DNA of 40,543 nt, taken from positions 1 to 40,543 of the IMG/VR virus record IMGVR_UViG_3300043436_001446; one strand, 5' to 3'. How positions within the stretch are numbered: the first letter of the stretch is position 1; every line of letters begins with the position of its first letter. Both the position numbers and the translations under genes were made by a program. The notes under the pieces are model-generated. The model searched no databases. It was not told the DNA's origin and saw only the letters and a program-made list of their open reading frames with translations. This DNA comes from a virus. Of the stretch, positions 16,531-18,894 are shown in pieces.

Positions 16531-16808
16531 GCAGCTACGACGACTGGAAACAAACAGACACCGCAGCAGACGAGCAAGCAGAGCAAGATGCAAGAGTTGC
16601 TGCACTAGCCGAGCAAATACGCCTCCAGATGGTTATGGCGGACTTTATCGACGAAATCGAGATAAGTGCCAGCTTTAACACAGAATGCTGTCAGGCGATA
16701 ACCAGGGCGTTTATGGAAGGGGTTAATCCTGCAATCCTACTGCACAACTATGCGCAGGATTGGTTGGATACTGAGGCGACTAGGTTGGCTAGGGAGAGAT
16801 TGAAATAA
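16527..16808 (+). CDS. Acidic helical hypothetical protein
   Basis: This 93-residue protein is rich in Asp, Glu, Ala and Gln, with a likely helical first half (DEQAEQDARVAALAEQIRLQ). No family is recognised. It is the last gene of the first early cluster. The -35 of the next promoter overlaps its final codons. Confidence 0.6.
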   Translation: MSSYDDWKQTDTAADEQAEQDARVAALAEQIRLQMVMADFIDEIEISASFNTECCQAITRAFMEGVNPAILLHNYAQDWLDTEATRLARERLK

Positions 16809-16828
16809 CCAGCCGCTTAGAATATAAT
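16800..16828 (+). promoter_or_regulatory. Sigma70-type promoter of the PAPS-reductase-like gene leader
   Basis: TTGAAA (16800-16805), 17-base spacer, TATAAT (16823-16828). It would start RNA near 16835, at the head of the structured leader. Confidence 0.7.
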
Positions 16829-16834
16829 ACAAAC

Positions 16835-16938
16835 AGGCCGTGAGAAGCCAAATTAAACAAGTGTAAAACAGCCAGTGCGTTATATCGGAAGGTGACTTGT
16901 TACCTAATTCTCACCCGATAAAGCGCATTGGCTTTTTT
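16835..16938 (+). ncRNA. Structured leader RNA 1 with terminator and possible pseudoknot
   Basis: The dominant element is a stem of 16870-16888 with 16915-16933: 18 of 19 positions pair (two G-T wobbles, one A-A mismatch), followed by a T-tract (16933-16938). It therefore looks like an intrinsic terminator just before the gene at 16951. Its loop holds a small hairpin (AGGTGA/TTACCT, 16890-16905). It also holds TTCTCAC (16908-16914), which is fully complementary to GTGAGAA at 16840-16846; pairing would make a pseudoknot next to the main stem. AGCCA occurs twice (16846-16850 and 16870-16874), and either copy could pair with TGGCT of the terminator. This suits an attenuator, a riboswitch or a stand-alone small RNA. 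Confidence 0.55.
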
Positions 16939-16950
16939 ATTGGAGTTAAA

Positions 16951-17871
16951 ATGAATCATGTAGTTAATTTTTCAGGCGGAAGAACCAGCGCCTATCTCGT
17001 TTATCTCATCGAATCAATGCGTAAGTCTGGCGAATGGACTGAGCCAGTAGAATATATTTTCATGGACACCGGTGCAGAGCATCCGAAGACGTACGAGTTT
17101 ATTAAAAAGTGCGTTGAGCATTTTGGGATTGAATTGACCTGTCTTCATGGTTACTTTGAGCGCCCAGTCGGTAAAGGTAATTCTTACAACGTCATCCCGC
17201 TGGAAGACTGCTCATTCAACATGAAGGGCGGCCCAATGGCGCGAATGATGCTGAAATATGGCTTACCAACAGTCATGGGTGCATGGTGTACTAGTCGCAT
17301 GAAAGAAGACACGCATGATAAATACTGCAACGATAAGTACGGGAAAGGAAACTATATTACATGGCTGGGCATCCGAGCAGATGAGAAGAACAGGCTAAAA
17401 ATTGGCAAGCGTAAAGATTTACGTTACATGGCAGAAATCACCGACTTTGAAAAAGAAGACGTGTTAGATTTTTGGCGTGGAATGCCTTTTGACTTGGAAA
17501 TACAAGAGCATCTTGGTAATTGTGTTTTTTGCATCAAGAAATCAATTAACAAGATAGCGCTTGCCGCAAAGGATGAGCCAACACTAGCTATCGAGTGGCA
17601 GAAGGCAATTGATAACGCAAGCGACAGGTTAAATCAGCCGACAGAAAAAGAGCGCGGAGGACTATTTAATGAAAAATACATTCAGCATGTGAAGAAAGGT
17701 GTTATGTATAGGAACCATAACAGCATGGACTCAATCATAGCCAAATTCGCCTTGCATTCCCGCGAGGAAATCTATGATTCAATTCGCAGCATCAAGCGCA
17801 AAGAGTCAGGTGGATGCACCGAATCCTGCGAGGCTTTCGCATCAGAACAACTAGACTGGGTAAGTGAATGA
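16951..17871 (+). CDS. PAPS-reductase-like PP-loop (N-type ATP pyrophosphatase) protein
   Basis: This 306-residue protein begins with a PP-loop, NFSGGRTSAY (6-15), then a FMDTGAEHPKTYEF strand and helix, as in PAPS reductases, DndC and related adenylating sulfur-transfer enzymes. Cysteines at C113 (AWCTSRMK) and C191/C194 (GNCVFCIKK), plus GGCTESC near the C-terminus, could bind a metal or Fe-S cluster or carry sulfur. It may act in nucleotide or DNA modification or sulfur metabolism; the substrate cannot be read from sequence. The ATG at 16951 has GGAG upstream and lies 13 bases after the terminator-like T-tract of leader RNA 1. Confidence 0.75.
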   Translation: MNHVVNFSGGRTSAYLVYLIESMRKSGEWTEPVEYIFMDTGAEHPKTYEFIKKCVEHFGIELTCLHGYFERPVGKGNSYNVIPLEDCSFNMKGGPMARMMLKYGLPTVMGAWCTSRMKEDTHDKYCNDKYGKGNYITWLGIRADEKNRLKIGKRKDLRYMAEITDFEKEDVLDFWRGMPFDLEIQEHLGNCVFCIKKSINKIALAAKDEPTLAIEWQKAIDNASDRLNQPTEKERGGLFNEKYIQHVKKGVMYRNHNSMDSIIAKFALHSREEIYDSIRSIKRKESGGCTESCEAFASEQLDWVSE

Positions 17872-18134: not shown

Positions 18135-18162
18135 CTTGTGTTTTTAGCTGCATGATATACAA
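18135..18162 (+). promoter_or_regulatory. Probable promoter of endonuclease-gene leader
   Basis: TTGTGT (18135-18140), 16-base spacer, TACAAT (18157-18162). It is a weaker match than the other promoters, but it is placed like that of leader RNA 1, with RNA expected to start near 18169. Confidence 0.45.
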
Positions 18163-18168
18163 TAAAGC

Positions 18169-18292
18169 CATCAGCTAGGAGTGAAGCCCAAACTGATTAA
18201 CCGCCAGAAGCGGGATAAACAGGCTAGACGAATAAACCCGTATCAGGTGCCTACTAGCAGGCCGCTTCAACTGATACGGGTTTTACTTTATG
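18169..18292 (+). ncRNA. Structured leader RNA 2 with terminator and possible pseudoknot
   Basis: A perfect 13-bp stem (18234-18246 with 18271-18283) is followed by TTTTACTTT, terminator-like, just before the gene at 18301. The loop contains a small hairpin (GCCT/AGGC, 18249-18262) and then CGCTTC (18263-18268), which is complementary to GAAGCG at 18207-18212 upstream, again allowing a pseudoknot. The 5' part includes a CCGC/GCGG hairpin (18201-18213) and AGCC/GGCT. It shares with leader RNA 1 the order GTG(AG)AAGCC, AAA, TTAA, then (A)TAAA(A)CAGSC, then terminal hairpin, so the two may be one RNA class. Confidence 0.5.
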
Positions 18293-18300
18293 GTGGTTTT

Positions 18301-18894
18301 ATGAGAAAAACTTATGTAAAGCGCAATCTGGTTTTAGGCGTTGGCAAGAATGATGCAGATTACGCCATAGAAAGTACGGTCAATGGAAAGCGAATTAGGT
18401 GCGAGTTTTATTTGAAGTGGCGATCCATGCTTATGCGCTGCTACAGCAAGAGCTTTCAAGAAAAGCACCAAGCGTACGCTGGATGTTCTGTTTGCGAAGA
18501 ATGGCTGACATTCAGTGCATTCAAGGCGTGGATGAGCCGCCAAGATTGGAAAGGCAAGCACTTGGATAAAGACTTGCTATTTAATGGCAACAAAATATAC
18601 GCAAAAGATTTTTGCGTTTTTGTTGATTCAAAAACCAACAATTTTATTTTAGAGAGTGGTGCGCCAATAGGCAATTGCGTGACAGGGGCAACATTCATAC
18701 CGTCTAGAAAAAAATTTAGAGCCAACTGCAGAAATAACTTTACTGGGAAAAATGAGTTTTTGGGTTATTTTAAGTGTCAGCATGAAGCGCATGAAGCGTG
18801 GCGCACACGCAAGCATGAGCTAGCTTGTCAATTGGCTGATTTGCAGACAGATGAACGAGCAGCAGACGCATTACGAAAACGCTACGCAAAATAA
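18301..18894 (+). CDS. AP2/HNH-type homing endonuclease-like protein
   Basis: This 197-residue protein has the N-terminal layout seen in phage HNH-like proteins with AP2 domains: WRSMLMRCYSKSFQ, then YAGCSVCEEWLTFSAFKAWM, then KHLDKDLLFNGNKIY. The C-terminal part (about 130-190) resembles an AP2 DNA-binding domain (FIPSRKKFRANCRNN, then EFLGYFKCQHEAHEAW). Such genes behave as free-standing mobile endonucleases. It carries its own promoter and leader hairpin, consistent with a late insertion. The ATG at 18301 was chosen because upstream in-frame codons fall inside the leader hairpin. Confidence 0.75.
   Translation: MRKTYVKRNLVLGVGKNDADYAIESTVNGKRIRCEFYLKWRSMLMRCYSKSFQEKHQAYAGCSVCEEWLTFSAFKAWMSRQDWKGKHLDKDLLFNGNKIYAKDFCVFVDSKTNNFILESGAPIGNCVTGATFIPSRKKFRANCRNNFTGKNEFLGYFKCQHEAHEAWRTRKHELACQLADLQTDERAADALRKRYAK

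Follow-up and report, generated by a model that had tools for sequence, protein, structure and literature searches.

The window analysed here, a 40,543-nt stretch of viral DNA (IMG/VR record IMGVR_UViG_3300043436_001446; all features located in it below are on the plus strand), carries two copies of a leader RNA in which two pseudoknots are built around a predicted intrinsic terminator. We found about 25 distinct relatives of this RNA in other phages, and compensatory changes in its helices indicate that the structure is under selection. The window has no Rfam match at the gathering score, and permissive E-values over the leaders give chance-level matches only; likewise, no description of the leader RNA was found in one catalogue of candidate RNAs or by keyword in the open-access literature. 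In line with the first-pass annotation of this DNA, which did not recognise a known class, we regard the leader as an RNA family without earlier description. The original observation, a long terminator-like hairpin with pseudoknot potential, is confirmed and proves stronger than first described; the interpretation put on it is partly supported. We favor, with moderate confidence, the reading that this is a mobile cis-regulatory leader RNA, acting in cis as a terminator-embedded attenuator.

Leader RNA 1 occupies positions 16836-16938 of the window, behind a sigma-70-type promoter (16800-16828; TTGAAA at 16800-16805, a 17-nt spacer, and TATAAT at 16823-16828) of the kind that the annotation had described. 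The -35 box falls within the end of the upstream ORF, and the -10 box within an insert discussed below. Folded as RNA, the region 16835-16950 reaches -39.1 kcal/mol (z = -4.5, a value equaled in 0 of 200 shuffles), and this fold reproduces the annotated stem of 18 pairs over 19 positions (12 pairs, one mismatch, and six pairs) together with its inner hairpin. At the 5' end is the P1 hairpin (16836-16849; GGC[C GUGAGAA]GCC), the stem of which covaries; in all curated members its loop is 8 nt long, with PK1 on the 3' side of the loop. The 5' strand of PK1, GUGAGAA (16840-16846), pairs with UUCUCAC (16908-16914), which lies 3' of the inner hairpin. PK2, which covaries over the members, joins the spacer AACAAGU (16856-16862) to ACUUGUU (16895-16901) in the loop of the inner hairpin P4 (16891-16904; GGU[GACUUGUU]ACC), which is itself supported by the fold. 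Thus, the single 7-nt complementarity between a loop and an upstream element that had been noted earlier is present in its heptamers, but it has to be separated into two pseudoknots. The 5' strands of the terminator stem P2 (16871-16881) and of P3 (16884-16888), both backed by the fold and by two-sided changes, are matched by 3' strands that, with the U-tract, span 16915-16938. On paper, neither pseudoknot breaks the terminator stem. A stable stem followed by a U-tract, U6 in leader 1 (16933-16938) and a T-tract in the other members, predicts intrinsic termination. Immediately beyond are the Shine-Dalgarno sequence GGAG (16942-16945) and the ATG (16951; the two together spanning 16942-16953) of a gene for a 306-aa PP-loop/PAPS-reductase-like protein (16951-17871; PF01507, E=5e-8; phrog_33262, E=1.2e-84).

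The second copy, leader RNA 2 (18170-18284), has a -10 box TACAAT (18158-18163) and precedes an HNH endonuclease gene of the phrog_953 family (18301-18894; E=2.9e-80). Its parts are P1 (18170-18197), PK1 (18182-18187 with 18264-18269), PK2 (18223-18227 with 18254-18258), P2 (18235-18245 with 18272-18282), and a T-tract (18281-18284). BLAST recovered the leader in Marinomonas phage P12026 and Idiomarinaceae phage 1N2-2, both times directly before HNH genes; L020, L026, and L032, each before an HNH gene, came from a pattern scan of viral contigs; and inspection of the DNA ahead of the window's HNH gene (18301) and of its relatives revealed leader 2 and many more. Most members come from metagenomic contigs. 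Type 2, to which leader 2 belongs, also comprises L180, L181, L188, L191, L194, L219, L228, L266, L268, L345, and L158; these have an extra small hairpin after P1 (none was seen in L158), and their PK2 strand is often CAGGUAGC. Type 1-like leaders are L203, L184, L216, L348, and L190, and more loosely L192, L220, and L308; a covariance model of type 1 that is blind to pseudoknots gives strong matches to L203, L216, and L348 and weak ones to L190 and L184. The two types are grouped by their common architecture, for which either a single ancestor or convergence may account. One contig (IMGVR_UViG_3300017747_001665) carries two type 2 leaders, L341 and L345, which differ in their PK2 strands and each precede an HNH gene of their own.

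A stringent descriptor (a terminator stem with a T-tract and 10 bp or more, plus PK1 and PK2) found 17 distinct matches, 15 of them clear members, on both strands of 3.0 Mb of fetched sequence; in dinucleotide-shuffled sequence, it found 3 matches over 8.4 Mb. HNH loci are over-represented in the fetched set and the members were partly picked by the same features, so this comparison supports the descriptor's specificity without giving an unbiased genomic rate or a genome-wide measure. A match at L216 +753 is probably due to chance, and L245, which passes the descriptor with a doubtful PK1 assignment, was left out of the counts. No copy was found in 369 bacterial genomes of one class, a weak search with stricter filters and no positive control; a loose pattern scan of genomes gave only chance-level scores over 100 tested loci, and the leader RNA was not found in the plasmids searched.

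Selection on the structure is evident in the pseudoknots. PK1 occurs in 15 distinct complementary versions, in which 99 of 105 pairs are Watson-Crick; with partners permuted the count falls to 55.7 +/- 4.9 (maximum 80), and 0 of 100,000 permutations are as high as observed, a strong result that is based on hand-curated segments, treats 15 versions that are not independent events, and carries no phylogenetic correction. The 18 distinct versions of PK2 score 15.1 with their own partner versus 7.7 with others. An MAFFT alignment (A2) misaligned PK2, pairing it in 40% of cells, and both pseudoknots were therefore counted on the hand-curated segments instead. Apart from L158, in which PK2 was not found, the family thus combines a terminator hairpin with a PK1 and a PK2 that covary. 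The annotation had named the lack of compensatory changes in homologous phages as the observation that would count against it; when this was examined, the finding survived, with changes in P1, PK1, and PK2. All three are seen between the orthologous loci L184 and L216, the flanks of which are closely similar: P1 changes from GGG/CCC to GGC/GCC, and PK1 from GUGGUAA/UUACCAC to GUGGAAA/UUUCCAC.

The proposed switch of the terminator arm TGGCT between two AGCCA copies fared less well. Both copies exist in leader 1, but the second is not conserved (L003 has CCG, and type 2 leaders have none), and across 22 members the terminator arms pair with the 5' region no better than shuffled sequence (mean z of +0.06 and -0.26), unlike what a classical attenuator would show. 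Two other candidate features were rejected: a TTG start codon within the terminator (at 16897), since in L002 the matching frame is not continuous with the gene, and a CsrA-like GGA motif, which is not common to type 2 leaders. A Pistol- or twister-like ribozyme is also improbable, as its order of strands would differ.

A -10-like hexamer (at least 5/6 matching) ends 6-8 nt before P1 in 17/22 members, which argues for a transcription start at P1; most leaders are then ~103-119 nt long and end just short of a start codon, the U-tract being followed shortly by a ribosome-binding site. In scans independent of the downstream gene, every true copy immediately precedes a co-oriented ORF, and that ORF encodes an HNH endonuclease in all copies but leader 1. 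The leader occurs with three HNH PHROG groups (953, 99, and 374) and one PP-loop gene; the HNH protein of L308 is related to the phrog_374-type one in L026. The HNH proteins are ~148-221 aa long and match HNH/AP2 families only. As only 22/71 proteins in the HNH tree carry a leader, it is dispensable, a point that counts against the attenuator reading.

The association of leader 1 with a PP-loop gene, which the annotation had emphasized, is real; it is, however, an exception in a class that belongs to HNH endonuclease genes, and a tie to the PP-loop gene can be rejected, as the relatives of that gene in L004-L010 lack leader 1. Alignment with L005, which has the same genes as the window and no leader 1, reveals a 142-bp insert (16805-16947) containing the -10 box, leader 1, and the Shine-Dalgarno sequence; AAAT is present at both junctions, and the edges are fixed only to a few bases. 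In L005, the upstream ORF runs into and overlaps the PP-loop gene. Leader 1 is identical at 100/103 positions (97%) to the leader of L032, which precedes an HNH gene rather than a PP-loop gene, and the L032 junction is also TAAAATGAA, as at leader 1. The configuration would be accounted for if leader 1 had been fused at the start codon, whether through leader capture or because an HNH gene was lost. Just upstream of the PP-loop start (3001), L004, L007, and L008 have another short conserved segment with a small hairpin (GCCATAGAGATATGGC).

Leader 2 and its counterpart in L005 differ by one mismatch over the leader (123/128 overall, with divergent bases past the U-tract), and the HNH proteins below them are identical at only 102/197 positions (52%). 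The HNH coding sequences (18301-18894 in the window) appear to have been swapped exactly behind a near-identical leader, possibly a trace that homing, or recombination, at the leader has left behind. Leader types are scattered on the HNH tree, with 14 changes (minimum 3) versus 20.7 for shuffled labels, on a tree of low support. This independent exchange of leaders and genes speaks more for an attenuator that acts in cis from within a terminator than for an RNA that partners one protein.

From these sequences we infer termination, regulation, and an order of folding. The leader's own promoter would start transcription at P1, and as RNA polymerase advances, P1, P4, PK2, and PK1 would be completed before the 3' strand of P2 leaves the enzyme; the knotted domain could form before the terminator closes because the 3' strand of PK1 directly precedes the last terminator strand. 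P2 would then close round the knotted domain and, with the U-tract, halt transcription just before the Shine-Dalgarno sequence, so that the downstream gene would be made from read-through transcripts only. The knotted domain would tune or gate termination, responding to a ligand, a protein, or the state of the polymerase; such gating is its most likely role, because selection keeps both pseudoknots though termination would need only a plain hairpin. No conserved alternative antiterminator pairing was found, and so the leader shows no sign of a classical two-state switch. The leader is probably an autonomous brake or switch for the gene behind it, whichever that is, and its function may be tied to endonuclease biology, given that its known contexts are HNH genes and one PP-loop gene. 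A bolder version, which we offer only tentatively, would see here a phage-borne, mobile riboswitch-like class, in which the terminator-embedded double pseudoknot senses some molecule or the state of the infection and so sets when homing-type HNH genes are expressed, and which other genes, such as that for the PP-loop protein, can capture. The control of free-standing phage HNH genes is known mostly from T4-like phages. If a conserved RNA, complete in itself, accompanies HNH genes of several groups and can also be joined to other genes, it would represent a portable regulatory part of mobile genes. Because its helices are defined, the RNA can be tested by compensatory mutation in standard assays of transcription, and a new RNA family can be built up from the alignments.

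The best comparison among known systems is the HMP-PP (thiS) riboswitch, a terminator-embedded aptamer of ~66 nt (PMC6478431), which likewise places a conserved, pseudoknotted domain within an intrinsic terminator directly ahead of the gene it regulates. In contrast to it, the leader has two pseudoknots, is longer at ~105-115 nt, shows no mutually exclusive structure, and precedes phage endonuclease genes rather than biosynthesis genes. T4-type homing endonuclease genes (mobE, segB, I-TevI, and seg43(25)) also have upstream RNA structures, most of those described sequestering the ribosome-binding site (PMC2988022), and seg43(25) has a stable hairpin immediately 5' of that site; in our leaders, however, the site follows the U-tract, beyond the stem, and the conserved fold contains two pseudoknots. 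The put RNA of HK022 is, similarly, a short phage leader that folds near its promoter and affects termination, as predicted for our leaders, but its two stem-loops promote read-through of distant terminators and are themselves no terminator (PMC9378689), whereas the leader itself ends in a predicted one. As for the HEARO/omega RNA of IscB-type elements, there was no Rfam match, and no IscB-like protein with RuvC and HNH domains was found among the HNH proteins.

The arrangement of promoter, structured noncoding RNA, terminator, ribosome-binding site, and gene is also that of AbiF/RCd22 and type III toxin-antitoxin leaders (PMC12373285), and an abundant terminated RNA could conceivably bind and restrain the nuclease encoded just 3' of it, the terminator keeping the RNA in excess over the protein. 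That nearly all downstream genes encode nucleases, and that an AP2-like region common to at least some HNH groups could be a shared target, would suit such an antitoxin-like inhibitor. We nevertheless consider it unlikely, as near-identical leaders stand before HNH proteins that have diverged to this extent and before an unrelated PP-loop protein, and as leader types are scattered on the HNH tree, though with fewer changes than for shuffled labels. Moreover, the leader is a single copy, without the tandem RNA repeats of type III systems, and apparently has no dedicated toxin partner.

The annotation had left the choice between an attenuator, a riboswitch, and a free small RNA; the first two remain apt as descriptions of the design, and the third loses ground. 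A trans-acting phage sRNA gene, of whose read-through the HNH genes make use, would fit the 5' end set by a promoter, the 3' end set by a terminator, the length of most members, and the copy in the window that lacks an HNH gene. Yet we judge it quite improbable: the ribosome-binding site invariably follows right behind the U-tract of a leader oriented with its ORF, no invariant unpaired seed is evident, and the copy without an HNH gene, too, is fused exactly at a start codon. The least probable reading is that of an ordinary insulating or leaky terminator, the extra pairing of which merely stabilises it without regulation. The lack of a conserved antiterminator is consistent with this, as are the plain terminator-like hairpins of L157, L004, L007, and L008 at the corresponding place before HNH or PP-loop genes, but a terminator has no need of two pseudoknots with compensatory change in many lineages. 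The cis-acting attenuator thus remains our preferred reading.

Further observations concern the surroundings of the HNH genes. The hairpin in L157 (Vibrio phage 219E41.2; 1440-1475) lacks pseudoknots and occupies the same place before a related HNH gene. Rfam identifies tRNA genes just 3' of the HNH genes in L184 (1952-2025) and L216 (1952-2024), and a tRNA-like sequence, recognized by eye only, lies upstream of the leader in L158 (Pseudoalteromonas phage Pq0; ~1210-1380). Finally, L225 and L226 share a different RNA-like element (GCGGCUAGGUUAGCU.CCGAAA, closed by GCGGC/GCCGC) at most ~130 bases upstream of the HNH start (1201), which is possibly a second leader family.
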